A stretch of DNA of 29,135 nucleotides from a virus. A program made the translations under genes and the position numbers. The notes beneath the pieces are model-generated. The model saw only the letters and a list, made by a program, of their open reading frames with translations, was not told the DNA's origin and searched no databases. Positions 3,021 through 25,600 of the stretch are shown here, in pieces (the stretch's first letter is position 1; the number at the start of each line of letters is the position of its first letter). The DNA lies in IMG/VR virus record IMGVR_UViG_3300021959_000279, positions 1 through 29,135 of that record; one strand, given 5' to 3'.

Positions 3021-3241
3021 TAAAAACAAAAGAATCAATTAGGGACAAGCAAATTGGCGGCAAACATTACAAGGGTAAGCAAATCCAAGTTTGGGATATT
3101 ATTGACGAGTATAACTTGTCTTTCTACGAGGGTAATGCGTTAAAATACCTTCTGAGAAGAAAGGACAACAGAATAGAAGATTTACAGAAGTTAATACATT
3201 ATATTGAGAAACAAATTGAAAATACCAAAGAAAGTTTATAG
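3017..3241 (+). CDS. DUF3310 small protein
   Basis: A 74-aa protein with the DUF3310 signature: KQIGGKHYKGKQIQVWDIID (residues 11-30), followed by a helical part with NALKYLLRRKDN and IEDLQKLIHYI. The family is widespread in phages, and some T7-like members are annotated as nucleotide-kinase-like, but no reaction is established here. The ATG overlaps the phosphoesterase stop (ATGA), and the next gene starts inside its 3' end, so the three genes are likely co-translated. Confidence 0.85.
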   Translation: MIKTKESIRDKQIGGKHYKGKQIQVWDIIDEYNLSFYEGNALKYLLRRKDNRIEDLQKLIHYIEKQIENTKESL

Positions 3242-3641
3242 GGTTCTTCTCGACAAAAAGGAATTTGACTACATCTTCCTTGAGTTCTTGAGAGAACAGT
3301 CTCCAGAAGACGCATACGATGAAGCTATAGCTTATATTAAGAAGTTCGCTCCACGATTTAAGCATTACAGAGATTATTCTTCATACAGGAGTCGTAGATG
3401 GAAGGAGAACAACGAGTTGATTGAAATCCCAAAAGAGATAATTGAAGCTGTGACGCACAACATAGAGTTGTTAATGCACAAGCATTTAAAGCGAGTTAAA
3501 ATTCGTAAACACGCTTACGAAGCTACTGTGCAAGAGATACAGAAGTGGCTACCGAATTACAAACCATATAGTAACTACCAATCTTACAGAAGCTCAATAA
3601 CAGCTAGACATAAGAAGAAAGTTAAAAAAGTTGCAAAATAA
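3216..3641 (+). CDS. Basic protein of unknown function with an internal duplication
   Basis: This is about 141 aa, very rich in Lys, Arg and Tyr, with no recognised family. It consists of two related halves: DAYDEAIAYIKKFAPRFKHY followed by RDYSSYRSRR resembles HAYEATVQEIQKWLPNYKPY followed by SNYQSYRSSI. This suggests a repeated helical unit, perhaps binding nucleic acid. There is no ATG near the N-terminus; TTG at 3216 (or 3204) is the likely start, overlapping the DUF3310 gene. The last codons (VKKVAK) coincide with the 18-bp upstream block of the portal promoter, so its C-terminus is shaped by a promoter. The function is unknown. Confidence 0.65.
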   Translation: MKIPKKVYRVLLDKKEFDYIFLEFLREQSPEDAYDEAIAYIKKFAPRFKHYRDYSSYRSRRWKENNELIEIPKEIIEAVTHNIELLMHKHLKRVKIRKHAYEATVQEIQKWLPNYKPYSNYQSYRSSITARHKKKVKKVAK

Positions 3642-3664
3642 CGAGAAGTACTAATATACTTTTG
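3618..3664 (+). promoter_or_regulatory. Late promoter 1 (upstream of portal)
   Basis: The block AAAGTTAAAAAAGTTGCA (3618-3635) contains the -33 TTG at 3631-3633. Exactly 23 nt later comes TACTTTTG (3657-3664), a perfect TAnnTTTG -7 element. The portal ATG is 10 nt further on. The 18-bp block and the spacing are identical in three other places in this window. The block overlaps the 3' end of the preceding gene. Confidence 0.85.
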
Positions 3665-3674
3665 CGTTATTGCA

Positions 3675-4901
3675 ATGAAAATATTTGGGTTCGAACTTAA
3701 ACGAGCTACCCCTTACAAGGATGCAACGAAGGGCTTTATGAGTACCTTCTTCAACAACGCTGTGGGCAGAACTCCTGTAACTGAGGAGACCGTTATGGGG
3801 ATATCTGCTTACTACGCAGGGGTTAGGCGAATTTCTGAGAGTATAGCACAATTACCCCTAGAAGTAATAAGGACTGATGGGGATTTTAAACAACAAATAG
3901 AACACCCTAGCAAGTATTTACTAAACAAGGAAGCTAACTATAAAACAATATCTTTCGATTTCACTCAGATACTTGTTACCTCTGCTATAAATTGGGGTAA
4001 TGGTTTAGCAATAATAGAGCGAGATGCTCAAGCTAGACCAATAAGTTTAACTAATATTCCAACTAAATCTTGCACTCCATTTGATTATGATGGGGAATTA
4101 TTCTGGAAGGTTGACTTAGGGCCAAAGCAGAAAGGGTTAATGGTTTCTGACAGAGACATTATTAATTTAAGGGGTTTTGGTGTTGATGATGTTCTAGGGT
4201 TAAGTGCTATTGAGTATCATAAGCAGAACTTAGGGTTAACTATTGCAGCTCAAGATTATGGCAGCGATTTTTATAACAAAGGAACTAGATTAGATGGTTA
4301 TATTGAGTATCAAGGCAAGTTAGATGTAGAGGTTAAGAACTCAATCAAGCAACAATGGGATAATAATTATGGAGCTAACGGTGTAGGTGGTACTGCTATT
4401 TTAGATAATGGTACAAAGTACACTAGATTAGGACTTCCACCAGAAGATGCTCAATTTATAGAGACTCGTAAGTTTCAGAAGAACGAGATAGCAACAATTC
4501 TAGGAATACCACCTCACTTTATCAACGAACTTGAACACGCTACATTCTCTAACATTGAACATCAAAATATTGAGTATGTAACTTATGGTCTAGGAGGGTG
4601 GATTGAGAAGCTAGAGCAAGAGTATGGAAGAAAATTACTCAGAGAGAGCGAGAAAAACAACCATTACTTCAGACACAATGTAAATAAGTTCCTTCGGGCA
4701 GATATTAAGACTAGAGCAGAGTTCTACCGATTAATGACAGACATTGGAGTATATAGTATAAACGAAGTAAGAGCATTAGAAGAACTTAACCCTGTAGAGG
4801 ATGGAGATCTAAGATTTGTTCAATTAAATAGAATAGAATTAAGTATAGCTAAAGAATATTATGAAAAAGATAACGAGGAAAGCGGAGATACGAGGGATTA
4901 A
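3675..4901 (+). CDS. Portal protein, HK97 family
   Basis: The portal forms the ring at one head vertex through which DNA passes, and it docks both the terminase and the head-tail connector. The 408-aa protein shows the HK97/gp3-type pattern: an N-terminal AYYAGVRRISESIAQLPLEV segment, INWGNGLAIIERD, SDRDIINLRGFG, the stem region with GTRLDGYIEY, and EIATILGIPPHFINEL, followed by a wing/crown with NKFLRADIKTRAEFY. It is directly preceded by late promoter 1. Its 3' end overlaps the protease gene by 41 nt. Length and synteny (terminase, portal, protease, capsid) fit. Confidence 0.95.
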   Translation: MKIFGFELKRATPYKDATKGFMSTFFNNAVGRTPVTEETVMGISAYYAGVRRISESIAQLPLEVIRTDGDFKQQIEHPSKYLLNKEANYKTISFDFTQILVTSAINWGNGLAIIERDAQARPISLTNIPTKSCTPFDYDGELFWKVDLGPKQKGLMVSDRDIINLRGFGVDDVLGLSAIEYHKQNLGLTIAAQDYGSDFYNKGTRLDGYIEYQGKLDVEVKNSIKQQWDNNYGANGVGGTAILDNGTKYTRLGLPPEDAQFIETRKFQKNEIATILGIPPHFINELEHATFSNIEHQNIEYVTYGLGGWIEKLEQEYGRKLLRESEKNNHYFRHNVNKFLRADIKTRAEFYRLMTDIGVYSINEVRALEELNPVEDGDLRFVQLNRIELSIAKEYYEKDNEESGDTRD

Positions 4902-5436
4902 CTCCGAAGATAGAACTGCTGAATTTATAATCAGCAATGAAACAGTAGATAGACATGGTACTGTGTTCAAGATGGATGGATGGGATTTAAGCGTATATGA
5001 GCGTAACCCTATAGTGTGCTACAATCACAACAGCTCTGGAGATAACCCAGACACAATTATTGGCACATCTAGAGTATACCAAGAAGGCAACAACCTTATT
5101 GGTGAGGTTCGTTTTGAAGACGAGGGGGATAACCCACTAGCAGATAAGGTTTGGAAGAAAATCAACAAAGGTATTCTGAAGATGGCATCTGTTGGAGCGA
5201 GAGTACACGACTACAGATTTGGTAGCGAGTCAAAAGGAGAAGATGCTAACACTATTTACTTCACAAGACAAGAGCTATTAGAGTGGAGTGTAGTTAGTGT
5301 AGGTAGTAATCCTCAAGCATTTAAGCGTTCTGCTGAATTAATAGATGAGATAAAAGAAGAGTTAACCCCAAAAGGGATGGATGCTAAGACTAGAAATCTA
5401 CTTAATAAGTGGAAAGTTAAAAAAGTTGCACAATAG
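4861..5436 (+). CDS. Prohead protease, HK97 family (U35)
   Basis: A serine protease that cleaves the scaffold part of the capsid protein during head maturation. At 191 aa it matches the family. The catalytic His is likely H56 (CYNHN) and the nucleophile S110 (KMASVGA). The conserved segment ELLEWSVVSVGSNPQA (138-153) follows. The start at 4861 lies inside the portal gene. The final residues KVKKVAQ come from the promoter block of late promoter 2 and are not part of the protease fold. Confidence 0.93.
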   Translation: MKKITRKAEIRGINSEDRTAEFIISNETVDRHGTVFKMDGWDLSVYERNPIVCYNHNSSGDNPDTIIGTSRVYQEGNNLIGEVRFEDEGDNPLADKVWKKINKGILKMASVGARVHDYRFGSESKGEDANTIYFTRQELLEWSVVSVGSNPQAFKRSAELIDEIKEELTPKGMDAKTRNLLNKWKVKKVAQ

Positions 5437-5459
5437 TATCAAACTCTATAAGAATTTTG
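5413..5459 (+). promoter_or_regulatory. Late promoter 2 (upstream of major capsid protein)
   Basis: The same 18-bp block AAAGTTAAAAAAGTTGCA (5413-5430) ends in the -33 TTG at 5426-5428. It is followed after exactly 23 nt by GAATTTTG (5452-5459), which is TAnnTTTG with the TA changed to GA. The capsid ATG is 20 nt downstream. It would give the capsid gene its own transcript in addition to read-through from upstream. Confidence 0.8.
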
Positions 5460-5479
5460 CAATATAATTAATATTTAAA

Positions 5480-6700
5480 ATGAATAGTAAAAAAATCAGA
5501 GAAGAAATAGCTGAAGTAGAAGTAAGATTAGACAATCTTAATACTTTAGTTGAAACTGAGGATAGAAGTATGACTGATGAAGAGACTGCTAAGTTTGATG
5601 CAGACTTTGAAACTTTCAAGAGATTATCTAAAGATTTAAAGAAGGCTAACGAGTACGAAACACTAAGAGCAGAAGCAGCTAAAAATGTTGCTCCAGTTAC
5701 TTTAGATGTTCAGAAAGAGTCTAAAGAAGAAAAAGAAGCAGTAAGAGATTTTTCTTTTGGTGATGCAGTAAGAGCAGCTTACACAGGTAAGTTAGATGGT
5801 CTTGCAAAAGAAATGCACCAAGAGGGTGAGAAAGAGATGTACCGATTAGGTAAATCTTCTACTGGTATTGTTGTACCTTCAATGGTAATCAACAGAGCAG
5901 TAGCTACTGAGAATGATACAACTGGCATTGAGACTCAGTCTTTCGTACAAGGTGTTTACGCTAAAACAATTCTTGGAGAATTAGGTGTTACTCAGTTAAA
6001 CGCAATTACTGACCAAAGAGTACCTATTATACCTTCAGTTACTACCCAATGGGAAGGCGAGACAGATGCAGCAGCAGATGGTATGAGTGCTTTAAGCAAG
6101 GTTGACTTAGCACCAATCAGATTGGCTAGTTACCTTGATTACTCTAAACAAGCAGCAATGCAGCACAATGATAGTTTAGAATCAGCATTACGCCAAGCAC
6201 TTCAAGAAGCAATCGGAGCGAAGCTTGAGTATGCAGTATTTACTGACGATACTGCAAATGGTTCTTTTGCTGACTTAGGTGCAGGGAAGACTCAAGTTAA
6301 CTCAGCTACAGTAACAGGGTGTGTATTAGCACTTATTGAGGAAGTAATTTCTAACAACCATAACTTTGGTAACTTAGGATTTGCAATTTCTCACGACCTT
6401 TATAGCGAATTATACCAAGCAGTATTAGCTACAGGTGTATCTCCATTAGTAGCTAACGATATGATTATGGGAATGCCATTTGAGGTATCTTCTCAAATCG
6501 CTGACATAGCAGTAGGTGAAGAAGCTATCTACTACGGAAACTGGAGTAAGGTTCAAGTTGCTCAGTTCGGTGGAATTGAGATCTTAACAGACCCTTACAC
6601 TCAGGCGGTATCAGGAACTAATCGCCTAGTACTTAACTCTTATTGGGATATGGCACTTGTACAAGATGCAGCAATCTCAGTAGCTGGTTATACTGGATAA
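5480..6700 (+). CDS. Major capsid protein, HK97 fold
   Basis: This 406-aa protein is the shell subunit. Residues 1 to about 95 are highly charged and predicted coiled coil (KIREEIAEVEVRLDNLNTLV), which is the delta/scaffold domain normally removed by the protease encoded just upstream. The mature part starts near KSSTGIVVP and shows the family pattern: QSFVQGVYAKTILGELGVTQ, VPIIPSVTTQWEGETDAA, and a C-terminal VQVAQFGGIEILTDPYTQAV with strand-rich end. It has its own promoter (5413-5459) and is followed by a strong terminator hairpin at 6726-6765, fitting a very highly expressed gene. Confidence 0.96.
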   Translation: MNSKKIREEIAEVEVRLDNLNTLVETEDRSMTDEETAKFDADFETFKRLSKDLKKANEYETLRAEAAKNVAPVTLDVQKESKEEKEAVRDFSFGDAVRAAYTGKLDGLAKEMHQEGEKEMYRLGKSSTGIVVPSMVINRAVATENDTTGIETQSFVQGVYAKTILGELGVTQLNAITDQRVPIIPSVTTQWEGETDAAADGMSALSKVDLAPIRLASYLDYSKQAAMQHNDSLESALRQALQEAIGAKLEYAVFTDDTANGSFADLGAGKTQVNSATVTGCVLALIEEVISNNHNFGNLGFAISHDLYSELYQAVLATGVSPLVANDMIMGMPFEVSSQIADIAVGEEAIYYGNWSKVQVAQFGGIEILTDPYTQAVSGTNRLVLNSYWDMALVQDAAISVAGYTG

Positions 6701-6725
6701 TATTGTTTCATAGTTTGTTGAATAT

Positions 6726-6765
6726 AAAGGGGTTAAGGTTTCTAATACCTTGCCCCTTTCTTTAT
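6726..6765 (+). terminator. Intrinsic terminator after the capsid gene
   Basis: The inverted repeat AAAGGGG (6726-6732) with CCCCTTT (6753-6759) contains a second nested stem AAGGT/ACCTT, giving a hairpin of about 12 bp with a short internal loop, followed by a T-rich run (TTTCTTTATAT). It lies between the capsid stop and the next ATG at 6771, so connector genes are expressed only by read-through. This would help keep capsid levels far above connector levels. Confidence 0.85.
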
Positions 6766-6770
6766 ATATA

Positions 6771-7328
6771 ATGGAAGTTTTAAAGAATATAAACGTAACA
6801 ACGTACACAAGTACACAAGCCTTAACAACTGCGGAAGCTAAAGAGCATTTAAACATCTTAGACACGAGCTTTGATGATTTGATTGATGACTTTGTATCAG
6901 CAGCACACCAACTCCTATATCAAGAAACGAGCATATTGGTAGATGGTGTATTAAAGGGGTATTTAACAACTTATAAGGATTTCTTCTTACCTTTAGGGTT
7001 AGTAGATAGTATAGCTATATATTATTACGATAGCGACAATGTTAGGACACTACTCAGTAGTGATGATTATATCTTATCACTTGGTAAAGTACCTATTGTG
7101 GAATTTATAGGTTCTGAGCCTACAACATATAGTAGATCTTACCCTTATGAGGTAGAGGTAACTACTGCGGTTAACACTAATCCAATGGTCACACAAGCGT
7201 TAAAGATGATAGTGTCTGACCTATTTGAAACAAGACAAACTAATGTACAAGGAACTGCGGTTAATAGAGAGATGAGCAGAAGTACTGCTTGGCAATTAAG
7301 TCTTATTAGCCATAGAGTAGAACTGTAG
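6771..7328 (+). CDS. Head-tail connector, gp6-like
   Basis: A 185-aa adaptor that stacks under the portal ring. The N-terminal half has the typical pattern TTAEAKEHLNILDTSFDDL, then IDDFVSAAHQLLYQETSI. The middle is strand-rich (LPLGLVDSIAIYYYDSDN) and the C-terminus helical (MVTQALKMIVSDLFETRQTN). The ATG at 6771 is preferred: an upstream in-frame TTG at 6750 would start inside the terminator stem. The stop abuts the ATG of the head-closure gene without a gap. Confidence 0.88.
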   Translation: MEVLKNINVTTYTSTQALTTAEAKEHLNILDTSFDDLIDDFVSAAHQLLYQETSILVDGVLKGYLTTYKDFFLPLGLVDSIAIYYYDSDNVRTLLSSDDYILSLGKVPIVEFIGSEPTTYSRSYPYEVEVTTAVNTNPMVTQALKMIVSDLFETRQTNVQGTAVNREMSRSTAWQLSLISHRVEL

Positions 7329-7640
7329 ATGAATATCGGCAAACTACATAGAAAGATAGTAATTGAAGAGCCAACTAACGCTTCTAACAATTATGGTGAG
7401 TATGTTACCACTTGGTCTACTTTCCATACTTGTTTTGCAGCTATAAGTCGCTTCGGAGGAACTGAGAAGCTAAGGTCTGGAAAAATAGAAGCGGTTAACA
7501 AGGTAAGGTTTAAGATAAGGTTCTTTGCAGGTATTGAAGAAGATATGCGAGTACTTTATAACGGAAATTATTATCAGATAAAAGAAATACAAGAATTAGA
7601 CCGAGAAGGTCTGTGGTTAACGTGTCAAAGAGAGTATTAG
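7329..7640 (+). CDS. Head closure / head-tail adaptor protein (SPP1 gp16-like)
   Basis: A 103-aa protein with the head-tail adaptor pattern: basic N-terminus with KLHRKIVIEEPT, the aromatic YGEYVTTWSTFHTCFAAISR, a variable loop, then VRFKIRFFAGIEEDMRVLYN and YYQIKEIQELDREGLWL. This matches the small beta-barrel that closes the head after packaging. It follows the connector directly and overlaps the next gene, the conserved order in HK97-like phages. Confidence 0.87.
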   Translation: MNIGKLHRKIVIEEPTNASNNYGEYVTTWSTFHTCFAAISRFGGTEKLRSGKIEAVNKVRFKIRFFAGIEEDMRVLYNGNYYQIKEIQELDREGLWLTCQREY

Positions 7641-8188
7641 ACATAAAGTTCGATGGTATGGATGAGGTTATTAAAGAAATCTCAAGCCTACACGAAGCCA
7701 AGATTAGGCGTAGAGAACTACGTAAGATTATGGGGCAACCTGCTCAGAAGTTGGTTAAGCAAGTACAGAAGACTGCTCCAAAATATATGGGCAAAGATAC
7801 TCGTTTTAAAGTGACTAGATATGGAGGTTTAGAGTCTAGAATGAAGCTACACGCAGGCACGTTAAAGCGGTCTATTAAGAAGTTTAACGCAAAGAAGAGT
7901 GCATCTGTATATGTCGGGCCGAAGGTACTAAAAAGACCTAAAAGTCTGAAGGGTTTTTATAGAAATGTAGCTAATTGGGATAAGAATGGCTGGTATGCGA
8001 TGTTCTTATTGTATGGTACTAAGGGTAACGATGGTAAAAAAGGTGGATTCATTAATAAGGGTATACCAACACCTAGCGAGGATTTCTTAGTAAAAGCGGT
8101 AAGACAAGGCGGTAACTCTTTGATGCGAGATATGGAGGATAATTTAAACAAGTATTTGAATAAAAAGATTAAGAAACTAAAGTTATGA
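7613..8188 (+). CDS. HK97 gp10-like tail component
   Basis: About 190 aa and strongly basic. The N-terminal LDIKFDGMDEVIKEISSL is typical of the HK97 gp10 family, followed by LRKIMGQPAQKLVKQVQKTAPK, a Gly/Lys-rich middle, GWYAMFLLYGTKG and a C-terminal AVRQGGNSLMRDMEDNLNKY helix. These proteins sit at the head-tail junction and are needed for tail completion. The start is a GTG, either at 7613 or, giving the neat N-terminus MSKRVLDIKF, at 7622; both overlap the preceding gene. The stop overlaps the ATG of the next small gene. Confidence 0.85.
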   Translation: MVNVSKRVLDIKFDGMDEVIKEISSLHEAKIRRRELRKIMGQPAQKLVKQVQKTAPKYMGKDTRFKVTRYGGLESRMKLHAGTLKRSIKKFNAKKSASVYVGPKVLKRPKSLKGFYRNVANWDKNGWYAMFLLYGTKGNDGKKGGFINKGIPTPSEDFLVKAVRQGGNSLMRDMEDNLNKYLNKKIKKLKL

Positions 8189-8343
8189 AGAAAAGTATAA
8201 TAGCAACACTAACTAAAGATTATAAGAATTTCAAGAAAGGAGAAACTCTATCTTTCAGTAAGTCACACTACGATAGACTAAAAAAAGAAGGCTACTTTGA
8301 TAAAGTTAAAAAAGTTGCAAAGAAAGAAACAGAAGAAAAATAG
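8185..8343 (+). CDS. Small basic protein, 52 aa
   Basis: The ATG overlaps the preceding stop (ATGA), so coupling is likely. It is lysine-rich, with GETLSFSKSHYDRLKKEGYF in the middle, and resembles the short proteins that sit before tail-tube genes in many siphoviruses; no function is known. The C-terminal part (VKKVAKKETEEK) is encoded by the block and spacer of late promoter 3, and its TAG stop forms the first three bases of the -7 element. Confidence 0.65.
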   Translation: MKKSIIATLTKDYKNFKKGETLSFSKSHYDRLKKEGYFDKVKKVAKKETEEK

Positions 8344-8348
8344 ATTTG
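8302..8348 (+). promoter_or_regulatory. Late promoter 3 (upstream of tail tube protein)
   Basis: The identical 18-bp block AAAGTTAAAAAAGTTGCA (8302-8319, TTG at 8315-8317) is followed after exactly 23 nt by TAGATTTG (8341-8348), a perfect TAnnTTTG. The tail tube ATG is 23 nt downstream. The promoter lies wholly within the coding region and stop of the 52-aa gene. Confidence 0.85.
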
Positions 8349-8371
8349 TAAAATATTAAAGAAAGAATAAA

Positions 8372-8794
8372 ATGGCAGTATTAAACGGAAGTTATGGTAT
8401 GATAAGCGTAGATGGTACGGTTATAATGAACCTTACATCTTGCGACATATCACAAGAAATGGCAACTCGTGACGTTACGACTAAAACGAGTGCAGGGAAT
8501 AGAGAATTATTAGAAGGGATGATGAGTTGGAGTGGTAGTGCTTCTGGATACTTCGAGGATGAAGATGCAGATGGTCACAAGGCTTTACTAGCTGCGTTAC
8601 AAGCAAGAACTGCAGTAGCTCTTATTTATACAGAGTATGATGCCACAGGTACTACGGCAGCATTAGGTAACACTAACTACACAGGTAACATATTTATCAC
8701 ATCAGTATCTCGTACAGATGGCTTAGAAGAGTCGGCTACTTATGAAGTTAGCTTTGAAGGTACAGGAGCATTAACAGCAGGTGTTAACGCATAA
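8372..8794 (+). CDS. Major tail tube protein (TP901-1-like)
   Basis: A 140-aa protein that polymerises into the tail tube. It shows the family's pattern: N-terminal GMISVDGTVIMNLTSCDIS, then ATRDVTTKTSAGNRELLEGM, WSGSASGYFEDEDADG, and late strands with YTGNIFITSVSRTDGLEESA and TYEVSFEGTGAL. It has its own late promoter and a strong terminator immediately after it, as expected for the second most abundant virion protein. Confidence 0.92.
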   Translation: MAVLNGSYGMISVDGTVIMNLTSCDISQEMATRDVTTKTSAGNRELLEGMMSWSGSASGYFEDEDADGHKALLAALQARTAVALIYTEYDATGTTAALGNTNYTGNIFITSVSRTDGLEESATYEVSFEGTGALTAGVNA

Positions 8795-8815
8795 CTAAAA
8801 CCTAAACAATAAACC

Positions 8816-8847
8816 AAAAGGGTAGTGGTTTTCTGCTACCCTTTTTT
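8816..8847 (+). terminator. Intrinsic terminator after the tail tube gene
   Basis: A perfect 10-bp inverted repeat, AAAAGGGTAG (8816-8825) with CTACCCTTTT (8836-8845), with a 10-nt loop and a T-run of six. Like the hairpin after the capsid gene, it separates an abundant structural gene from the low-abundance genes that follow. Confidence 0.92.
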
Positions 8848-8857
8848 AAAATGAATT

Positions 8858-9145
8858 ATGATTAAATTAAACAATAAAGAGTACAAATTTAAGTTCGGCT
8901 TCAAAGCAATGTTGAACTTTGAGAATGAAGAAGGAGTTAGTGTATCAAGCATTAGCGATGACTTCAAGATGCAGACTATCGTAGATATGGCTTACTATGC
9001 TATCAATGCTACTAAGGATGAAATCACTAAGGATGAAATCATTGATGCTATTGATGCAGATGCTTCTCTGATTGGTATTATTACCAAAGCTATCGAGAAG
9101 GATATGGGGGCATTGAACCTTATCGAAGAGGAAGCAAAAAAGTAG
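8858..9145 (+). CDS. Tail assembly chaperone, short form (gpG-like)
   Basis: A 95-aa protein located between tail tube and tape measure, the invariant place of tail assembly chaperones. It begins KLNNKEYKFKFGFKAMLNFE and ends in an acidic/Lys tail. The last sense codons are GCA AAA AAG followed by TAG, which forms a -1 slippery heptamer in the correct frame. The short form is made by most ribosomes; it is thought in this family to coat the tape measure during tail assembly. Confidence 0.88.
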   Translation: MIKLNNKEYKFKFGFKAMLNFENEEGVSVSSISDDFKMQTIVDMAYYAINATKDEITKDEIIDAIDADASLIGIITKAIEKDMGALNLIEEEAKK

Positions 9146-9444
9146 GTATACCGACTATAGACTTTATAGAGGGGTATAGTCTGTCGGTACTACGCATAAA
9201 CCCCTCTAAATTATCGCTATGGCAATGGTGGGTAGCTTATGCTATCTATTGGCGTAACGAGCAAACTAAGCAACGAGGTGATTGGGAGAGAGCTAGAATG
9301 ATTGCTTTCTATGCGGTAGCTCCTCACACTAAGAAAGTTAAGAAACCAAAGGACATAGTAGAGTTCGATTGGGAGAAGAAAAAGAAAAAAGTGTTATCTA
9401 AAGAGGAATTTTTACGACTAAGAAAATTGCATTATGGCTGGTAA
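8858..9444 (+). CDS. Tail assembly chaperone, -1 frameshift fusion (gpGT-like), 195 aa
   Basis: A -1 shift on A AAA AAG (9136-9142) joins the 95-aa short form to a 100-residue extension read from 9142 to the TAA at 9442-9444. The extension has no start codon of its own in a sensible place. It includes LSLWQWWVAYAIYWRNEQ, RGDWERARMIAFYAVAP and a very basic tail. It fills the otherwise unexplained 290 nt before the tape measure and overlaps that gene's start. This is the standard G/GT organisation; in lambda the T part recruits the tail tube protein. No protein-level proof is available from sequence. Confidence 0.87.
9136..9189 (+). promoter_or_regulatory. Programmed -1 frameshift signal with stem-loop
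   Basis: The slippery heptamer A AAA AAG (9136-9142) is in the zero frame just before the TAG stop. Six nt downstream begins a stem: TACCGAC (9149-9155) pairs with GTCGGTA (9183-9189), and AGACT (9159-9163) with AGTCT (9178-9182), with a 3-nt bulge between them. That gives 12 base pairs at the ideal distance for stimulating -1 slippage. Confidence 0.88.
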
Positions 9445-11821
9445 AGAAAAGACAGTAAGTATACAACTCACCTATGACCAGCTTCAGCTATTAAAGACTT
9501 GGGGTAAGACTGAGAATACTCTCAAGAAGCAGGCTAGGAAGATGAAGCGTCTAGGTCAGCAGATGAGCTTGGCTATCTCTGCTCCTCTTGGTTTGGCTGC
9601 GGTAGCTGCTATAAAGCAGTTCGCTACTTTTGAGCAGTCAATGGCTAAAGTACAAGCGGTGTCTGGTGCAACTGCTAAAGAGTTTGAGATGCTTACAGCG
9701 AAAGCGTTAGAGCTTGGGCGAAGCACTATATTTACAGCCCAAGAGGTAGCTAACCTAGAGCTACAATACTCGAAGCTAGGTTTCTCAGCAGGTGAGATAG
9801 ATAAAATAACGAAAGCTACGCTTGATTTAGCCCTTGTTACAGGGGAGGATTTAGCTCGTTCAGCAGAGGTAGCAGGTTCTACCCTTAGAGGTTTTAACTT
9901 GGATGCGTCTGAGATGCCAAGAGTGGTAGATGTAATGGCAAAAGCGTTTACATCTTCGGCACTTGACTTAGAGAAATTCCAAGTATCTATATCTAAGATT
10001 GCACCTATAGCTGCTGCTACAGGTAGGAGTATTGAAGAAGTTACTGCTGCCGAGTCTGTTCTTGCGGATACTGGTATAGAAGCATCTATTATAGGTACAT
10101 CGTTACGTAAGATATTTGGTGACTTAGCTAAAGAGGGGATGACCTACAAGGAAGCTATGGATCAGATACGTAACTCCACAGCCCCTGTTGTTACGGCTAC
10201 TAAGTTATTCGATATACGTGCTGCTGCTGCTGCGGTGAGTTTAGCATTCCAAGACGAGAAGCTGAACAGATTATTAGAGACTTACAAGAATGCAGGGGGT
10301 ACTACTGAAGAGTTGAGTAAAATAATGAACGATACTCTGATGGTTGATTTAAAGGAGCTACAGAGTGCGGTTCAAGGTCTGGGTATTAAGTTTGGCGAAG
10401 TATTAAGCCCAGCAATAAGGAGTATAACTGATGCGTTCACGACTTTAGCACAGAAGATAGGAGATTTACCTAAACCTATAAAGATTGCTATAGCGGTATT
10501 AGGTGGATTTTTAATAGCTATACCACCAATAATAGCTATGCTTGGGCAGTTAGGGCTAGCATTGATTGGTTTAGGAACTACGTTAACAGGGGGGTTAGCA
10601 ATTATAGCCCCTTATGCTGCTGCTATAGCAGGGTTAGCTTTATTGTTAGGTGGGTTAGCTGTTGCGGTATACAACCTAAAGGGTAAGTATAGTGAACTAA
10701 CTCCACAAATAGAGGGGGTAGCTAGAGCAGAGGATAGACATCTTAGGTTCACTAAACTGCTAAACAAAAACCTACCTACCACAAAGAAGGGATTAATAGA
10801 TTTAAGAGATAAGTATTCTGATTTAGCAAGCAAACTAAAAGAAGTTAATAATGAGAAGATAAAGGAGATAAAATTATCTAAGATTGCTCAGTTAGAAGCG
10901 TTAAAAGAATTAACTGCAAAAGACGTTACATCTGGAGCTTATAAGTTCACAGGTCAAGCAGGTAATTTAGCTTATACAAAGCAGCTAAAAAAAGGGGGGC
11001 TTGAAAAGAAATTAAGCAAGACAGAAGAAATACTCAAGAGGTATGAAGACATCAACAAGAAAATAGATGAAGAGTTAGCTAAGTTAGATACTAAGATAGC
11101 ACTATTCGGCACAGGCGGTGGCGGTGGCGGTGGTGAAGAACTGCAACTTTCTCCCGACATTTTTTCTGAGTGGATTGATAAATATTCTGTAGACGCTTAT
11201 AAAAACTTATTCCCAGAGGGAACTGGTAAATTAGACAATGGTATTGGTAGGGCATTGGATAAGTGGGCGGATGATTTTAGTAAACAGTTTGAATTAAAGT
11301 TCGACATAGAAGCTGCTTTCCCTATGGATAAAATCAACAAGATAATACAAAAAAGTGGCGAGAAACTAAAGGAATTAACATCTTCGATTGAGTCTATGAC
11401 AGAGAGTGCTATTGTTGAGATGTCTAGTATGTTAGGGGATATGCTAGGTCGTGCTTTATCTGGACAAGACATTAGTGGCAAGGAGTTTGGTAGAGGGCTA
11501 CTTGAGATGATTGCAGGATTTATGCAACAGCTAGGAGCATTGATGATAGCATTCGGTGTTGAGTATGCGGTGTTTGAGAAGTCGGTAATTTCTGGTAATG
11601 CTCCATTGGCAATAGCAGCAGGGATAGCGATGGTAGCAGCAGGTGCAGCAATCAAAGGGGCATTGTCGAGCGGTGTTGATGGTAGCGGTGGTGGAATGAC
11701 CACTCCTTCTTACGGAGGTGGAGCAGGTGGTTATGGTGGTCAAGACTTTACTACAGAGGTTAAGATACAAGGTAGAGAGATGATAATAGTTCAAAGTAGA
11801 GAAAAATCATTCAGAAGATAA
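9434..11821 (+). CDS. Tape measure protein
   Basis: A 795-aa protein that sets tail length and is ejected with the DNA. The N-terminal third carries the TP901-type tape-measure domain (FATFEQSMAKVQAVSGATAK, LELGRSTIFTAQEVANLELQ, TLRGFNLDASEMPRVVDVMA). A long hydrophobic region (about 345-412, IAIAVLGGFLIAIPPIIAM and following) could insert in the host membrane. A seven-Gly linker (about 557-565, GGC/GGT codons) separates this from a charged C-terminal part with more hydrophobic helices. It is the longest gene after the tail chaperone, as expected, and abuts the tail-tip gene. Confidence 0.95.
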   Translation: MAGKEKTVSIQLTYDQLQLLKTWGKTENTLKKQARKMKRLGQQMSLAISAPLGLAAVAAIKQFATFEQSMAKVQAVSGATAKEFEMLTAKALELGRSTIFTAQEVANLELQYSKLGFSAGEIDKITKATLDLALVTGEDLARSAEVAGSTLRGFNLDASEMPRVVDVMAKAFTSSALDLEKFQVSISKIAPIAAATGRSIEEVTAAESVLADTGIEASIIGTSLRKIFGDLAKEGMTYKEAMDQIRNSTAPVVTATKLFDIRAAAAAVSLAFQDEKLNRLLETYKNAGGTTEELSKIMNDTLMVDLKELQSAVQGLGIKFGEVLSPAIRSITDAFTTLAQKIGDLPKPIKIAIAVLGGFLIAIPPIIAMLGQLGLALIGLGTTLTGGLAIIAPYAAAIAGLALLLGGLAVAVYNLKGKYSELTPQIEGVARAEDRHLRFTKLLNKNLPTTKKGLIDLRDKYSDLASKLKEVNNEKIKEIKLSKIAQLEALKELTAKDVTSGAYKFTGQAGNLAYTKQLKKGGLEKKLSKTEEILKRYEDINKKIDEELAKLDTKIALFGTGGGGGGGEELQLSPDIFSEWIDKYSVDAYKNLFPEGTGKLDNGIGRALDKWADDFSKQFELKFDIEAAFPMDKINKIIQKSGEKLKELTSSIESMTESAIVEMSSMLGDMLGRALSGQDISGKEFGRGLLEMIAGFMQQLGALMIAFGVEYAVFEKSVISGNAPLAIAAGIAMVAAGAAIKGALSSGVDGSGGGMTTPSYGGGAGGYGGQDFTTEVKIQGREMIIVQSREKSFRR

Positions 11822-14800
11822 ATGGGAGTATTATTCAGCAGTCAATTTAAGTCAAGTGCAGATGAGACCTACAAGGTAGATTTGTTCTACGAAGGGTATG
11901 AGGGGTTTAATGCAATAATAATAGGAGGAACAGGCAATACTTTCTACTTTGATGGTGATTGGACTTTATTAATCAATAGCGGAGATAGCGTACAGATATA
12001 TTGGAATAGTGGTGCAAATAATGCAGCAACTGCGGTTAATAATAGTGGTAGTGCGGTAACATATAATTCTACCTTTGATAGAACAGAGGTTATCTTGAAT
12101 ACTGCTTGGCAAGCATATTACGAAACGGTAGTAAGTAACGAAACTATCCCAGTTTATGACCCAGATATTATAGACATCTATACCGAGTGGGAGAATGATG
12201 GAGACATATTGTTAGCACCTATTAAGGCGAGTAACACAATGATTACTTACGCTAATAATGATAGCTATTTTGATTGGTTTTTAGCTAAGTATGTTTCTGC
12301 TACAGACCAAACATTCAAACTTGTTATTTATAAAGACAATACGGGTTGGGAGTTAGAATGGGCAGGCAACATTGTTATAGATTTACTTGAGTGGGATAAT
12401 ATCCCTAAGCCAAGACCAGTTACATTCAAAGCGATTGATGGGTTTGATTTACTTAAAGATATACCATATTCAGATGTTACAGTATATCCTCCAGATGATG
12501 AGAAGCTGAAGGAGCATATCTACAGAATATTTGCTAGGACAGAGTTAGCTCAATTTTGGGATACACTAGACCCTTATTTAAGAGAAAGTATAGAGTATAA
12601 GAGTAATGAAGTAACAGGTACACTTACTGCATCTCATAGTCCTTTAGATTACGTGTTTATGCACGACAGGATGTTCTTTGAGAAAGGTGACAATGAAAAA
12701 GTAGAAGGAATAAGTTGCTATGATGCACTTAAAGCAATACTTGAACTATTTAGTTGTAGAATATTTATAAGTCAAGGTTGCTACTACATTCAGCAAGTGC
12801 GTAACTACGAGAGTGGGAGTATATTCTACAGGGAGTACACTAAAGCTATGAGTAGCTACACTGCAAGTAGTTATACTTTTGAGTTAACTTCGGGTGGCAA
12901 TGATAGGGCAGAGGACTTAGTGACAATGGCAGGAGGTAAGTTCGCTTACTTAGCAGGGCTATACAAAGTTAGTATGCCTACAAGGAGACATGACCAACTT
13001 CTAACAAGAATAAGTACAGGCAGTATCAACGTAGGAACTGGTGTAAATAGAGATGGTAACCCTTATATTGGCGAAGAGTTTAGTATGGGAACTATTGATG
13101 GTGGAGTCGGTAGCGGTGCTTACTTGACTGTAGGTAACGATGTACACACTAACAGTATGATTTCATCTGACCATTTAGTACTATCTTATTTAATGTATCA
13201 AGGTGGTACAGTTGGACTACACAGACCCATAAAAACAAGCAGTAGTGGTTCTGATATTTATGTGAGTAAAGAAGGGTTTGATAACTGGGATTTACTTGGC
13301 AGATTAAGTGGTTCTACTACTGTTACTATTTATAATGGAGCAGGAGCAGCAATAGCTGTAGGATTAGCTATATCTAACACTTCTAATCAAGGTAATAGTA
13401 CTGTTAAGATTACATTATCTTCTGGTACTTACACATCTTCTTGGGCATATATAAAGACAAACGACTATACAGATACTTACTTCCTTAGTGGCGGTAATGG
13501 CAATCCTTTACAATGGGTGACAATGGATTACACGCAATGTTATTATCAGAAATTATTTAAGCCACCATTTTCTAATAGTCACACATTAAAGACTCCCGAA
13601 GTACCTTTTGATGGGGAGGTATTGTTCCATTTAAGAGCAGATGCTAATGATTGGAAAGGGATAGCTTTAAGTAAGGCATTTACAAGTTTTGCTGAGATAT
13701 TTAAAACTTATTTCATAGCACCTGTAGGCAATACATTAGAATATAATGAGGATATAGAGATAGAGGATATTTCTAGTGGATACACGAAAGAGTTAGAGTT
13801 AGACCCTCTTAATATATCTGAGCAGAATACTGCTACATCTCTTAACCATTTAAGAGTAGCAAAAGATTACTTAACAACCAATACACCTACTTATGCTGCT
13901 AGTGAATCGTGGGATGCGGACTTCGATGCAGACTACGACTTAAATATTACTCGTATAATGGAAGCTATGTCTCTTCAGTACAGACCTATAGAGCGTTATA
14001 TGGGAACTTTTGAAGGGCAGTACTATCCACACTACGCTATAGGATTTAACGATAAGACGTACTTCCTAAATGCGTGTAGGAAGAAGTACTCAATGGATGA
14101 GACTGAAGGAGAATGGATAGAGCAGACCAATCGGAGAGCAGGGCTTATTCCTACCGAGTATAAAGGATGGGAGGATAGCGAAGAAGAAACTACTGGAGAT
14201 GGCAATACAAGTGGTATGGTTGGAATGTTTAATAACAACCACAAAATAACAACCTTAGATGCGGATAGCGGAGCAGGTACTACAACGAGTCTAACCATAG
14301 AAGCTAACGAGATAAAGTTACTTAGTGGGGAGTCTATCGTTGTTGTAGATCCAACAAGCAACGATGTTGTGGAAGAGTTTGTTCTGAGTGCAGATTTAGC
14401 AGCAGGAGCAACAACGGCAAGTGTAACAAGTCAAGTTACCACTAAAGATATAGTGGAAGGTATGGCTATCCAACCTAAGAAAGATGTAATATGGGATAGA
14501 ACAGTAGATTTAGATAGTAGAGTCACTACAGTCGAAACAGACTTAGATGCTGCGGAGTTAGATATAACAGAGTTACAGTTTGATTTAGATACTAAGTCAG
14601 CAGACTTTACTTTAGCTTTAACTGATGCTTGGAAATTTATACTTGCTGACAGCACTAGCACAATAGACATAACTATAGATACTAATGCTAATGTTGCATT
14701 CCCTGCAAATACCCAAATAAAGATATGTCGTTACGACACAGGTGCGGTAACATTTACTGCGGAGTCGGGAGTAACAATAAAAGGCTTAACGGCTATATCG

Positions 14801-14863
14801 GCTACCGATGAGGTTGTAACATTAAAGAAACTTGGTACTGATTTATGGTTGATTTATGCCTAA
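11822..14863 (+). CDS. Large tail-tip / baseplate protein with fibre-like C-terminus
   Basis: A 1013-aa protein directly after the tape measure, the usual site of distal tail and receptor-binding proteins. The N-terminal part is strand-rich and contains WDNIPKPRPVTFKAIDGFDL, a pattern seen in large tail proteins of Bacteroidota phages; the middle is a long beta-rich region. From about 860 onward the protein changes: a coiled coil (SRVTTVETDLDAAELDITEL) is followed by a domain with DITIDTNANVAFPANTQIKI, FTAESGVTIKG and GTDLWLIYA, which resembles trimeric fibre-tip domains. It may combine hub/Dit-Tal functions with a fibre. The exact role is inferred from position. Confidence 0.75.
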   Translation: MGVLFSSQFKSSADETYKVDLFYEGYEGFNAIIIGGTGNTFYFDGDWTLLINSGDSVQIYWNSGANNAATAVNNSGSAVTYNSTFDRTEVILNTAWQAYYETVVSNETIPVYDPDIIDIYTEWENDGDILLAPIKASNTMITYANNDSYFDWFLAKYVSATDQTFKLVIYKDNTGWELEWAGNIVIDLLEWDNIPKPRPVTFKAIDGFDLLKDIPYSDVTVYPPDDEKLKEHIYRIFARTELAQFWDTLDPYLRESIEYKSNEVTGTLTASHSPLDYVFMHDRMFFEKGDNEKVEGISCYDALKAILELFSCRIFISQGCYYIQQVRNYESGSIFYREYTKAMSSYTASSYTFELTSGGNDRAEDLVTMAGGKFAYLAGLYKVSMPTRRHDQLLTRISTGSINVGTGVNRDGNPYIGEEFSMGTIDGGVGSGAYLTVGNDVHTNSMISSDHLVLSYLMYQGGTVGLHRPIKTSSSGSDIYVSKEGFDNWDLLGRLSGSTTVTIYNGAGAAIAVGLAISNTSNQGNSTVKITLSSGTYTSSWAYIKTNDYTDTYFLSGGNGNPLQWVTMDYTQCYYQKLFKPPFSNSHTLKTPEVPFDGEVLFHLRADANDWKGIALSKAFTSFAEIFKTYFIAPVGNTLEYNEDIEIEDISSGYTKELELDPLNISEQNTATSLNHLRVAKDYLTTNTPTYAASESWDADFDADYDLNITRIMEAMSLQYRPIERYMGTFEGQYYPHYAIGFNDKTYFLNACRKKYSMDETEGEWIEQTNRRAGLIPTEYKGWEDSEEETTGDGNTSGMVGMFNNNHKITTLDADSGAGTTTSLTIEANEIKLLSGESIVVVDPTSNDVVEEFVLSADLAAGATTASVTSQVTTKDIVEGMAIQPKKDVIWDRTVDLDSRVTTVETDLDAAELDITELQFDLDTKSADFTLALTDAWKFILADSTSTIDITIDTNANVAFPANTQIKICRYDTGAVTFTAESGVTIKGLTAISATDEVVTLKKLGTDLWLIYA

Positions 14864-15158
14864 GATGCCAAGCAAAACATATAGAGTAAAGAGTTACGGC
14901 AAACAGACTAAACACGATAAGCCTAAGAATTGGTTGAAAGACCAATCTCATAAAGCAATATACAGTACTGCTCGTTGGATAAAGCTAAGAAAGGCATATA
15001 TGCAGCGTAACCCAGTTTGCGAGATGTGCGACAAGGGTGCTTACTTCTTAGACCACATTATACCAATATCTCAAGGTGGGGATATATGGAATGAGGACAA
15101 CCTTCAAGGGTTGTGTCCTTCTTGTAACGGAAGGAAAACAAAAAAACAACAAAGTTAA
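14856..15158 (+). CDS. HNH endonuclease
   Basis: A 100-aa free-standing HNH nuclease. Zinc ligands are C55-C58 (CEMC) and C87-C90 (CPSC); the catalytic core is D66-H67 (FLDHIIPISQGGD) and N82 (NEDNLQGLC). The last HNH position is Asn (N91, CPSCNGRKT), a common HNN variant. The start overlaps the tail-tip gene by 8 nt. HNH proteins can help terminase cutting or act as homing enzymes; being far from the terminase genes, its role here is open. Its stop codon lies inside late promoter 4. Confidence 0.88.
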   Translation: MPKMPSKTYRVKSYGKQTKHDKPKNWLKDQSHKAIYSTARWIKLRKAYMQRNPVCEMCDKGAYFLDHIIPISQGGDIWNEDNLQGLCPSCNGRKTKKQQS

Positions 15159-15197
15159 AAAAGTTGCAACTATAATGTAGTTAGCAATCTATTTTTG
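15151..15197 (+). promoter_or_regulatory. Late promoter 4 (upstream of tail-completion gene)
   Basis: The fourth identical block AAAGTTAAAAAAGTTGCA (15151-15168, TTG at 15164-15166), exactly 23 nt before TATTTTTG (15190-15197), a perfect TAnnTTTG. The GTG start of the next gene is only 5 nt beyond the -7 element, so the transcript would be leaderless or nearly so. Confidence 0.85.
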
Positions 15198-15202: not shown

Positions 15203-15715
15203 GTGATAGCTACTGCAATATACGAGTTGCTTAATGTTACGGATGTAACTGATTTGGTGAGTGGGGTCTACATCTCCAATGCACCACAGAATGCAGCTTT
15301 CCCTTATATAGTCTTTCGTGAGAGAGCGATACCAGAGGATACTAAGATACAGACCAAGATTATTACCTATGATGTCGAGATTATAATTGTAAGCGACAAA
15401 GGGCGTAATGGAGCTGGCGGTTTTAAAGAGATAGATGCTATAGGTGCGATGGTTCATTCTAAGTTAAATCGTTTCGCAGGGTTAGCAGGAGGCAAAATGT
15501 TAAGTAGGGTTGTTAGAACGGATATAGATACGTTTGTTGACCCAGAGACATACTTTGCTATACACGTACTTGACTATCGTGTTCGAGAATCAGTAACAGA
15601 GAGTTTAGCAGATCCTGCCAACTACCCTATCACAGTTAATGTATATGTTAATGATGTTCTGCAAGACAGTAACGTGGTTAACGGATATGAAGATAACACT
15701 TTTACAGTAAGCTAA
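15203..15715 (+). CDS. Tail completion protein, DUF3168-like
   Basis: A 170-aa protein with the DUF3168/HK97 gp11-like pattern: a short N-terminal helix (IATAIYELLNVTDVTDLV), GVYISNAPQNAAFPYIVFRE, a strand ITYDVEIIIVSD, a helix with FKEIDAIGAMVHSKLNRFAG, and FAIHVLDYRVRES. Family members cap the head-proximal end of the tail. They normally sit between the gp10-like and tail-tube genes, but here the gene is about 7 kb downstream, behind its own late promoter. The start is GTG. The C-terminal 40 residues (YPITVNVYVNDVLQDSNVV) extend beyond the usual family length. It abuts the fibre gene. Confidence 0.75.
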   Translation: MIATAIYELLNVTDVTDLVSGVYISNAPQNAAFPYIVFRERAIPEDTKIQTKIITYDVEIIIVSDKGRNGAGGFKEIDAIGAMVHSKLNRFAGLAGGKMLSRVVRTDIDTFVDPETYFAIHVLDYRVRESVTESLADPANYPITVNVYVNDVLQDSNVVNGYEDNTFTVS

Positions 15716-17437
15716 ATGGCAACATTTGATTTTGAATTAAACATAAAGACAATCAACGGAGAGAGTATTCTCGGTGCAGGAGATGTAACGATAGCAAGTC
15801 TAAGCGTAGGCACAGATGGGCAGATACCATTTACTAACGCTACGGGTGATGACTTGGATTATAGTAGTGGGTTAACTTATAGCGGCACAGAACTTTATGC
15901 GGAGGGCGATTTAAGACTTCAACTCAACGGTCAAGGCAGTTGGGATTATACCATACAAGCAGTAGATTCTAATACCGCCAATATTGGTGGGCCAAACAGA
16001 ATTAATTACACGAGTAGTTATAGTGATTTTAGCGGCTCTGTTTATATTGCAACTGGTGGAACTTCTAAAGTTGTATCTATTGGCAATGATGGTGGTTTAG
16101 GTGCAAGACTTGGCGTAAAAGGTAGGGGCACAACAACTCAAGCAACATTCTTATTGCAGAATAGTGCAGATACAGAGTTGTTTAAGGTATTAGATAATGG
16201 AACTATAACAGACATTAATGGTAACACATTCCATTCTCTAGGCACAGATGGGCAGATACCATTTACTAACGCTACGGGTGATGACTTGGATTATAGTAGT
16301 AGTTTTACTTATACAGATGCAAATAAACAATTAAATTTAATTGCTGAGACTAGTGCAAATATCACCCCTTTATTGCTTAGTCAAGAAAACACGAGCAATC
16401 AAATGGAGTTCCAAATCACTAGCAGAAATCATATAAAGTGGGTTGGCAGTCAAGGAACAATATATCTTAGCGGTAGAGGAAACGGATTATTTATTGGTGG
16501 GGCTTCAACAGATGCATCAGCACGACTACACGTCAAAGGCAGCGGCACAACATCAGCAACAACAACATTCTTATTAGAAAATAGTGCTGGAACAAACTTG
16601 TTGAAGGTTACGGATGATGGTGCGATGGTTTCATCTAATTATATTACTGCTGATGGTTATAAGATGGGAGGTTTTACCATTGAACCAAGATCAACTGTAC
16701 CTACCGAACAAATAAGTTTTATCAGCACAGGAGGATATACACTATTTAACGTATTTGCTCAATCGTCAACATCAGCATCACCTAAACTAGCAGCATTTGC
16801 ATTGTGGGATACAGACCCAACATTTTCAAGTAATATTAATCAATTCCAACTCGCAAATAATCCAACATCATCAGCAGCAACCATATTCACCCAAGCCTAT
16901 GGTTCTGGAACTGCTAAACCTATAAAGATGCACGCAAATTGGAGTGGTGGTAATTACGAACATCTGATAATAGAAACAGATGGGGATATTGGTATGTCAA
17001 CATCTCCATCAGCACGACTACACGTAAAAGGAAGCGGCACAACATCAGCAACAACGTCATTACTCGTACAAAATAGTGCAGGAACGGACTTATTGAAGGT
17101 TACGGATGATGGTGCTGCAACATTTGATTGGGGTACTCACATATTTGGAGATGGCGGGTCGGGTTTATCAAAAATTGCTTTTAGAAGTGATGGGTTTGGC
17201 TCTTACATATCATCTAATGGGTATAATATAACTATTAGGGGTAGGGGAGCAAGTAGCGGAGGCGTTCTAATTGGCGGAACTTCAAGTCAAACAGACCTTA
17301 CAATTAGTCAATATAGGTATGTTAAATTTGCCGATGTAGGCACACCGAGTACCCTAGAGAATGGTGCTATGTGGTATGATGGAACAAATTTCAATGTAAG
17401 AATAGGAGGAACTACTTACACCTTAGATAAGACATAA
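15716..17437 (+). CDS. Tail fibre protein with internal sequence repeats
   Basis: A 573-aa beta-rich protein without cysteines or signal peptide. It holds two copies of the peptide LGTDGQIPFTNATGDDLDYS (near residues 33 and 177) and three copies of a unit like ARLHVKGSGTTSATT with NSAGT-LLKVTDDGA (near 130, 268 and 432). Repeats of this kind build trimeric shafts in phage fibres and host-like adhesins. The C-terminal end (VGTPSTLENGAMWYDGTNFN, then VRIGGTTYTLDK) looks like a typical fibre tip. It probably contacts the cell surface. No chaperone or peptidase domain is visible. Confidence 0.78.
   Translation: MATFDFELNIKTINGESILGAGDVTIASLSVGTDGQIPFTNATGDDLDYSSGLTYSGTELYAEGDLRLQLNGQGSWDYTIQAVDSNTANIGGPNRINYTSSYSDFSGSVYIATGGTSKVVSIGNDGGLGARLGVKGRGTTTQATFLLQNSADTELFKVLDNGTITDINGNTFHSLGTDGQIPFTNATGDDLDYSSSFTYTDANKQLNLIAETSANITPLLLSQENTSNQMEFQITSRNHIKWVGSQGTIYLSGRGNGLFIGGASTDASARLHVKGSGTTSATTTFLLENSAGTNLLKVTDDGAMVSSNYITADGYKMGGFTIEPRSTVPTEQISFISTGGYTLFNVFAQSSTSASPKLAAFALWDTDPTFSSNINQFQLANNPTSSAATIFTQAYGSGTAKPIKMHANWSGGNYEHLIIETDGDIGMSTSPSARLHVKGSGTTSATTSLLVQNSAGTDLLKVTDDGAATFDWGTHIFGDGGSGLSKIAFRSDGFGSYISSNGYNITIRGRGASSGGVLIGGTSSQTDLTISQYRYVKFADVGTPSTLENGAMWYDGTNFNVRIGGTTYTLDKT
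15807..15868 (+). repeat. 62-bp perfect direct repeat, copy 1
   Basis: Identical over 62 nt to 16239-16300 and in the same reading frame of the fibre gene, 432 bp (144 codons) away. The identity extends through synonymous positions, which indicates a recent duplication or gene conversion inside the fibre gene. Confidence 0.95.
16239..16300 (+). repeat. 62-bp perfect direct repeat, copy 2
   Basis: Second copy of the repeat at 15807-15868. Recombination between the two copies would delete 144 codons in frame and give a shorter fibre. The surrounding unit is repeated less exactly elsewhere in the gene (around 16517 and 17008). Confidence 0.95.
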
Positions 17438-18780: not shown

Positions 18781-18967
18781 AAAGTACGGATGGGCTAGGT
18801 TTTTAATAACTGGAGGCGGTATTGGTGGCATTATGCTGCTAGTAGCACACTTACTACACAATAAAGTAGGCGGTGGAGATGTAGAGGGGTTGGCTATTGG
18901 GCTTACCACCTTTGTTTTATGGGGTGTAATAGTTATAGCATTATACAATTATTTCGATAGAGATTAG
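18752..18967 (+). CDS. Small two-helix membrane protein, holin candidate
   Basis: 71 aa: a basic N-terminus (FFQRVFKKYGWARF), a glycine-rich transmembrane helix (about 18-36, ITGGGIGGIMLLVAHLL), a short loop with GGGDVEG, a second helix (about 48-66, IGLTTFVLWGVIVIALYNYF) and a charged tail. Small size, two helices and position just before the lysis genes fit a class II holin, but holins share no reliable signature. The stop (TAG) overlaps the GTG of the next gene. Confidence 0.65.
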   Translation: MKLFFQRVFKKYGWARFLITGGGIGGIMLLVAHLLHNKVGGGDVEGLAIGLTTFVLWGVIVIALYNYFDRD

Positions 18968-19542
18968 TGAGAATAGAGGACATCATACCCGTAATAGCTG
19001 CTCTTGGAGGTGGTGGTCTTGGCGGTTGGATATTCGGAAGAAGAAAACAAAACGCTGAAACAAAAGTTGTTGAAGGGTCTGCGTTAGAATCTATGCAAAA
19101 AGGGTATCACTCTATGGTTAACGACTTTAACGAAAGATACGAAGAGCAAGGTAAACGTATAGACTCTTTAGAGACTGAACTAAAAAAATGTAAAGAAATT
19201 CAAGGAGAGAGGTCTAAGCAATCTTTCTTAAAAGAATATGCTGCAAGTGAGTTTGGACTTCTGATAATCAAATTCAACGGAGATATTGAATACACTAACC
19301 CTACGTTTGATAGGTTCTTTGGGGTGAAGGTTGGACACTTCATAGGTAAACCATACAGAGACTTTTTAAGCGAGAAGGAGTATGAGGCTAGTAAAGCAGC
19401 GTGGAGTGAAGGAAAAGATAAAACAGAATTACTTAATTATTCTAACTGGTGGCTAGTAGAAGGTAAAAGAAAGAAGTGTAATTGGATAAAGGCTTACAAC
19501 GACAACTTTAACCAAGTGGCTTACTGCGTACTTAGAGTATAG
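18967..19542 (+). CDS. Membrane-anchored protein with coiled coil and PAS-like domain
   Basis: 191 aa with a GTG start overlapping the previous stop. Architecture: a short N-terminal hydrophobic anchor (DIIPVIAALGGGGLGGWIFG, residues 5-24) followed by RRK; a charged coiled coil (about 35-90, SLETELKKCKE); then a PAS-like domain (about 93-191). The latter has FGLLIIKFNGDIEYTNPTFD, FFGVKVGHFIGKPYRDFL and a final strand VAYCVLRV, the classic PAS beginning and end. The first half resembles small anchor proteins common in Bacteroidota phages; the PAS addition is unusual. PAS domains bind small ligands or mediate dimerisation. No kinase or output domain follows. Confidence 0.72.
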   Translation: MRIEDIIPVIAALGGGGLGGWIFGRRKQNAETKVVEGSALESMQKGYHSMVNDFNERYEEQGKRIDSLETELKKCKEIQGERSKQSFLKEYAASEFGLLIIKFNGDIEYTNPTFDRFFGVKVGHFIGKPYRDFLSEKEYEASKAAWSEGKDKTELLNYSNWWLVEGKRKKCNWIKAYNDNFNQVAYCVLRV

Positions 19543-25239: not shown

Positions 25240-25270
25240 CAAATATAAACTGAATATTTTAAATAGCAAA
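25240..25270 (-). promoter_or_regulatory. Leftward early promoter
   Basis: On the minus strand TTTG (25267-25270), a 19-nt spacer and TATATTTG (25240-25247) form a full-consensus Bacteroidota promoter. The start codon of the first leftward gene lies 5 nt beyond the -7 element. Unlike the four late promoters it lacks the AAAGTTAAAAAAGTTGCA block and has a 19-nt rather than 23-nt spacer, consistent with recognition by the unmodified host polymerase early in infection. Confidence 0.82.
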
Positions 25271-25572: not shown

Positions 25573-25600
25573 TTGATATAAAAAATAAATAATATTTTTG
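25573..25600 (+). promoter_or_regulatory. Rightward early promoter of the primase-helicase operon
   Basis: TTG (25573-25575), a 17-nt spacer and TATTTTTG (25593-25600), a perfect -7 element. Transcription would begin near 25605, leaving a leader of about 90 nt before the primase ATG, in contrast to the leaderless arrangement on the other side. The -33 match is only three bases, so confidence is moderate. Confidence 0.6.

Follow-up and report, generated by a model that had tools for sequence, protein, structure and literature searches.

In temperate phages of Gram-positive bacteria the small proteins RinA, ArpU and Ltr, which are encoded near the terminase genes, activate the virion genes. Ltr of phage phi13 is described as a late transcription regulator (PMC13123087). 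In phage Mu, the Mor dimer occupies a 16-bp site that is centred at -43.5, replaces the -35 element and is used with the main sigma factor of the host (PMC4390567), and the C protein serves the four late promoters of Mu (PMC4461284). The TAnnTTTG box of Flavobacterium psychrophilum lies at -12 to -5 (PMC9723704).

We analysed an IMG/VR virus record of 29,135 bases, referred to below as the window, and our data indicate that it carries four promoters that are likely to be activator-dependent and late. No description of these promoters was found in the open-access papers searched. They resemble the Mor and C systems of Mu in a small candidate activator, a predicted block centre at about -42.5, the number of four promoters and the missing -33 element, but the block of the window is a direct repeat (lag 9) and not two 5-bp inverted repeats, the -7 boxes are of the Bacteroidetes type and the candidate gene is located between those for terminase and portal. 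With RinA, ArpU and Ltr they share a small phage protein gene near the terminase genes, for which we propose virion-gene activation here; unlike those, this gene has no family-library match, stands after terminase and not before it, and would serve four promoters in the window. Compared with Bacteroidetes primary-sigma promoters (-33 TTTG / -7 TAnnTTTG), the host-type -7 box is kept, whereas its first T is often lost and an 18-bp phage block is found instead of the -33 element. A late-promoter motif in common is also a feature of phage sigma factors and RNA polymerases (T4 gp55, phiEco32, AR9), but here the -7 box remains host-type and the upstream block exceeds a sigma element in length.

Only distant relatives of the window were found among named phages: the best match of its portal protein is 36% among the named-phage matches listed, and its large terminase subunit (TerL) is at most 40% identical to named phages among the matches listed. 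The bacterial genomes scanned with TerL gave a single match, at 29%, and no prophages of the window's group were found in bacterial genomes. The host-type -7 boxes together with the matches to Cellulophaga and Flavobacterium phages suggest a Bacteroidetes host. A leftward operon encodes a homologue of the Mom DNA-modification protein (21818-22549, - strand; PF25680, E 5.6e-22), and a PAS-like domain protein, with sub-threshold PAS matches, is encoded in the late region at 18967-19542.

Four identical blocks in the window

The 18-bp block AAAGTTAAAAAAGTTGCA has four exact copies in the window, all on the + strand, at 3618-3635, 5413-5430, 8302-8319 and 15151-15168, and no further copy with up to three mismatches, for which 0.12 would be expected by chance. 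A TTTG ends exactly 29 nt after each of them, at 3664, 5459, 8348 and 15197, which equals 23 nt from the TTG of the block to the -7 octamer. The original prediction, an identical block at four places with fixed spacing and with AAAGTT twice at a 9-nt period, was thus correct. It had also placed a TAnnTTTG-type element at every site; the full form is present at sites 1, 3 and 4, i.e. TACTTTTG (3657-3664, predicted start ~3669), TAGATTTG (8341-8348, ~8353) and TATTTTTG (15190-15197, ~15202), while site 2 reads GAATTTTG (5452-5459, ~5464), with the TTTG in register and the TA absent. Given the fixed 29-nt spacing and a TAnnTTTG box at -12 to -5, the block is predicted to lie at about -51 to -34, with its centre at about -42.5.

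The first genes past the blocks, all on the + strand, encode the portal protein (3675-4901; phrog_12, E 1.3e-96), the major capsid protein (5480-6700; phrog_617, E 1e-29), the major tail (tube) protein (8372-8794; phrog_1407, E 6.5e-23) and, at 15203-15715, a presumed tail completion protein, which has no profile match and is labelled by its position only. The claim that the blocks precede structural genes is supported by PHROG profiles for portal, capsid and tail; the orthologue of the fourth gene in relatives has the same promoter type upstream. The long gene after it (15716-17437), possibly a tail fibre gene, contains repeats visible by eye near 15810 and 16240 and near 16510 and 17000.

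When the downstream 60-mers were shuffled 200,000 times, TTTG never fell at a shared offset for the four copies. A test blind to the block, which collected exact 12-mers equidistant upstream of any TTTG on both strands, ranked the four-site set far above any other in the window and gave none in the reversed control. A motif model trained without the window scored the four sites at 20.3 bits, vs 2.8 for the next best of 612 anchors. Block-less promoters contrast with these sites. The leftward early promoter with the -7 element TATATTTG (25240-25247, - strand) has a TTG 19 nt upstream, as had been predicted (TTG-N19-TATATTTG, 25247, -), whereas the rightward early promoter at 25593 has an N17 spacing; a further promoter-like site, TATGTTTG (41-48, + strand), called from the sequence only, lies before the terminase-to-candidate-activator genes.

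Three of the block copies double as codons for KVKKVA at the end of the preceding gene. The fourth is in another frame and in relatives the blocks occur outside coding sequence, so it is the DNA and not the protein that is constrained. An explanation at the protein level, i.e. a KVKKVA tail, was ruled out, since the frames differ and many sites are non-coding.

Corresponding sites in related phages

We collected relatives by a capsid-protein search, which gave 68 contigs, the majority 53-69% identical; these contigs are partial and mutually related. The record G004 (IMGVR 3300046167_000405, 33,988 bases) has a capsid region at both ends (L210, L216) and many matches repeated ~30.6 kb apart, and hence is probably a ~30.6-kb genome with overlapping assembled ends. 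The window and its relatives have a common gene order of terminase, small gene, portal, protease, capsid and tail.

Diverged relatives (major capsid protein identity 53-64%) carry sites of this kind upstream of the same genes, 29-30 nt from the TTTG end. Four sites stand out in every longer relative contig examined, preceding the portal, the capsid, the tail tube (or a small gene ahead of it) and the fourth gene. The spacing across 71 distinct late sites, as scored, is 29 nt in 54 and 30 nt in 17. The original prediction had proposed to search relatives for the block at its fixed spacing; the spacing and the genes were recovered, but the block itself differs by lineage. Two contigs (L227 and L238) have four sites each with the differing block ACAAAAAAAAACACA, ending exactly 29 nt before the TTTG, L233-L235 carry TGCAAAAAAAAATACT-like blocks, and most other relatives have AAAGTTAAAAAAGTTACA-like ones. 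Cellulophaga phi39:1 has no such late-promoter sites.

Within a genome the blocks agree. In a set of 30 dereplicated contigs, blocks of different late genes in the same genome are most alike 28-29 nt before the TTTG, at 12.3-12.5 of 18, vs ~6.5 of 18 for internal genes as a control, and at least 13 matches at that peak were found in 54-56 of 80 late gene pairs vs none of 90 internal ones. The identity is 13-16 of 18 across genes within a genome vs 8-12 for the same gene across block types. An operator that follows its binding protein would be expected to change in this concerted way per lineage. With the G005 lineage left out of training, the motif model gave exactly four G005 sites of at least 16.0 bits vs 3.6 for the next one; the same four sites also rank first in G001 and G003, for which close relatives were still in the training set. 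The exact block among all viral contigs occurs in 47 stretches, which we consider coding or chance matches because none has a -7 element at the right spacing. The loose pattern AAAGTTGCA-N21-TAnnTTTG occurs in 109 stretches, roughly the chance estimate, and one of these (L150) is a real relative, discussed below.

The -7 box of the relatives follows the pattern nAnnTTTG: among the 71 late sites, A(-11) is found in 68 and the TTG in all, with T(-7), T(-6) and G(-5) retained and T(-12) mostly gone. The start codons of the portal and the fourth gene lie 4-10 nt after the TTTG in the window and its relatives (exactly 5 nt in seven of seven sites for the fourth gene), so their mRNAs are predicted to be nearly leaderless; at the fourth site of the window the predicted start is one base before the GTG start codon. 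In most cases the capsid and tail-tube start codons are 13-30 nt after the TTTG. The same promoter with differing leaders could set low vs high protein output.

The candidate activator and its single-domain relatives

Few non-structural genes are common to the window and the longer relatives, and the best conserved of them is 3216-3641 (+ strand), which lies between the terminase large subunit and the portal and ends just past the first block. Its TTG start was picked by orthologue comparison. The predicted product has 141 residues, is basic (33 K/R vs 18 D/E) and represents a tandem duplication of a ~70-aa helical domain: its halves are homologous by hhalign (E 1.6e-14) and by BLASTP inside the window protein (2e-7), and the AlphaFold model has two similar four-helix units with a mean pLDDT of 91. 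The gene is present in all block-bearing contigs that cover the terminase-portal region. It was not found in L231, L248 and L224, where the blocks are absent too; gene and block are not independent events in this respect, because both follow phylogeny. The location of 3216-3641 beside the portal promoter could simply reflect a conserved gene order. We consider it plausible, at slightly better than even odds, that this product is the late activator.

The domain has nothing at the curated cut-offs of Pfam and NCBIfam, nothing convincing in PHROGs and no match to known DNA-binding families or folds, and tblastn found no match to the candidate in 50,697 phage records. Fold searches with the tandem and single-domain models gave no significant match, which does not show a new fold; one weak match was to a chain of the Mu C complex (Z 2.5, rmsd 3.8, 39 residues), tied with unrelated ones. 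Searched against Pfam-A up to E 1, 16 tandem and 30 single-domain members showed no match to the Mor family. The predicted geometry is close to that of Mu Pm and the Mu C promoters, whereas membership in the Mor/C family is unsupported by sequence.

Two further protein searches added more than 30 contigs, and the single-domain relatives among them were nearly all fetched by the protein alone. The single-domain family matches the tandem one by profile (E 1.3e-8), and the four helices recur in its model (mean pLDDT 87). All of the 30 single-domain contigs examined have the homologue between terminase and portal and an element GAAAC...YTNC with a -7 box at 29 or 30 nt, positioned from within 45 nt upstream of the candidate gene end to just past it. 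The best form of the element, GAAACAAAGTTTCA, reads as an inverted repeat and precedes the portal -7 by 29-30 nt. There are four coding contexts for the element, among them positions past the stop codon, spanning it and in two reading frames. Because it codes for the candidate in most single-domain phages, protein-level constraint may nevertheless account for part of its conservation. The relative L150 has a single-domain protein between terminase and portal, and AAAGTTGCA-N21-TATATTTG directly before the portal. Two contigs show a second palindrome, GAAACTAGGGTTTCT / GAAACAAGAGTTTCT (L334:3712, L340:5927), with a -7-like box at 25 nt and not at 29-30.

The promoter-proximal half of the element is mainly GYTNCA, at the same position, in the tandem and the single-domain groups, and the direct-repeat signal of the blocks in the tandem group has its maximum at lag 9. 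Since a protein of two domains is paired with a direct repeat, and a one-domain protein with an inverted one, we propose one domain per half-site: in the tandem protein, each of the two domains would take one half of the direct repeat AAAGTTAAA | AAAGTTGCA, and the single-domain relatives would dimerise on inverted repeats (GAAAC-AAA-GTTTC). There is about an even chance that these proteins form a new late-activator family for the Bacteroidetes-type RNA polymerase, defined by a ~70-aa helical domain that acts as a dimer on inverted repeats or tandem-fused on direct repeats, 29-30 nt before the -7 end, with operators co-changing per lineage.

Alternative explanations and meaning of the promoters

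The original prediction counted the 23-nt spacing from the TTG, and it is very improbable that these are host primary-sigma promoters with an unusually spaced -33 element and no phage factor, even though the window block contains TTG and the -7 boxes are host-type. The TTG is replaced by TTA, ACA or TAC (GTTACA, AACACA, ATACT) in nearly all relatives; a TTG at 22-24 nt is found in four of the 71 sites and at the normal 17-21 nt in two, being absent in the other 69, so the block is not a -33 element but lies just upstream of the -33 position. An identical 18-bp block also far exceeds the length of such an element. The A-richness of the blocks and this very location would suit an UP element, bound by the alpha subunit of RNA polymerase and making a strong promoter without an activator, and a partial UP element also adjoins the activator site of Mu Pm (PMC4390567). 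This is nevertheless improbable, since all four copies have the same letters at the non-A positions (GTT...GTTGCA), which vary in concert from lineage to lineage, and the single-domain phages have GAAACAAAGTTTCA, with little A-tract, at the same place. We hold it to be just as improbable that the block is the operator of a repressor that silences the virion genes early, or of a host transcription factor that varies between hosts. A fixed operator beside a promoter is compatible with either sign of control and lineage-specific blocks could track different hosts, but the missing -33 is typical of positively controlled promoters, and within the sample studied only phages with the candidate gene have the block and its spacing.

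The promoters may also depend on an activator that is another phage protein, most plausibly the one with a DnaA-C-terminal helix-turn-helix encoded at 24148-24708 (- strand; PF08299, E 2e-20) in the leftward early operon, although we regard this as unlikely. Its early position suits a regulator of later genes, and Bac_DnaA_C is above the cut-off in nine of 14 group records, including all the longest; all of these records may be incomplete. However, conservation of the protein is only 34-37% where that of the blocks is high, and in phages that keep the single-domain element the domain is sub-threshold in four of 12 records and missing from G030 (28,677 bases), with the same proviso that records may be incomplete. 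TTATNCACA is the usual recognition sequence of DnaA domain IV. One perfect DnaA box of this type is present in the window, at 6-14, no more than chance, and the DnaA_C-type gene is not linked to the promoters. A reading of the blocks themselves as DnaA boxes is unsupported.

We return to the reading that the four blocks would be operators of a phage-specific activator, most likely the product of 3216-3641, and give it as a whole a probability of roughly 0.6. Between the activator and the modified polymerase of the original prediction, which named no factor, comparison favours an activator-type promoter class, and no sigma or polymerase profile matched the window proteins scanned. We infer that the protein bound at the block would be an activator, not a repressor, and that the genes would be transcribed late. 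The host polymerase would first transcribe the terminase-to-candidate region from the block-less TATGTTTG. The product of 3216-3641 would then bind the four blocks (about -51 to -34), substituting for a -33 element, and would recruit or activate the host polymerase with its primary sigma at the degraded -7 box (nAnnTTTG). It would act on the portal promoter directly downstream of its gene as well as on the other three, and the four promoters as a set would cover the virion genes, starting with the portal.

A late-transcription switch for such phages, whose hosts have atypical promoters, was not found in the open literature searched. The question is directly testable, because the operator is defined, the geometry is fixed and one candidate gene is named. 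The relatives provide a natural series of co-varying protein-operator pairs, and the promoters are a potential inducible system for flavobacteria, where genetic tools are scarce.
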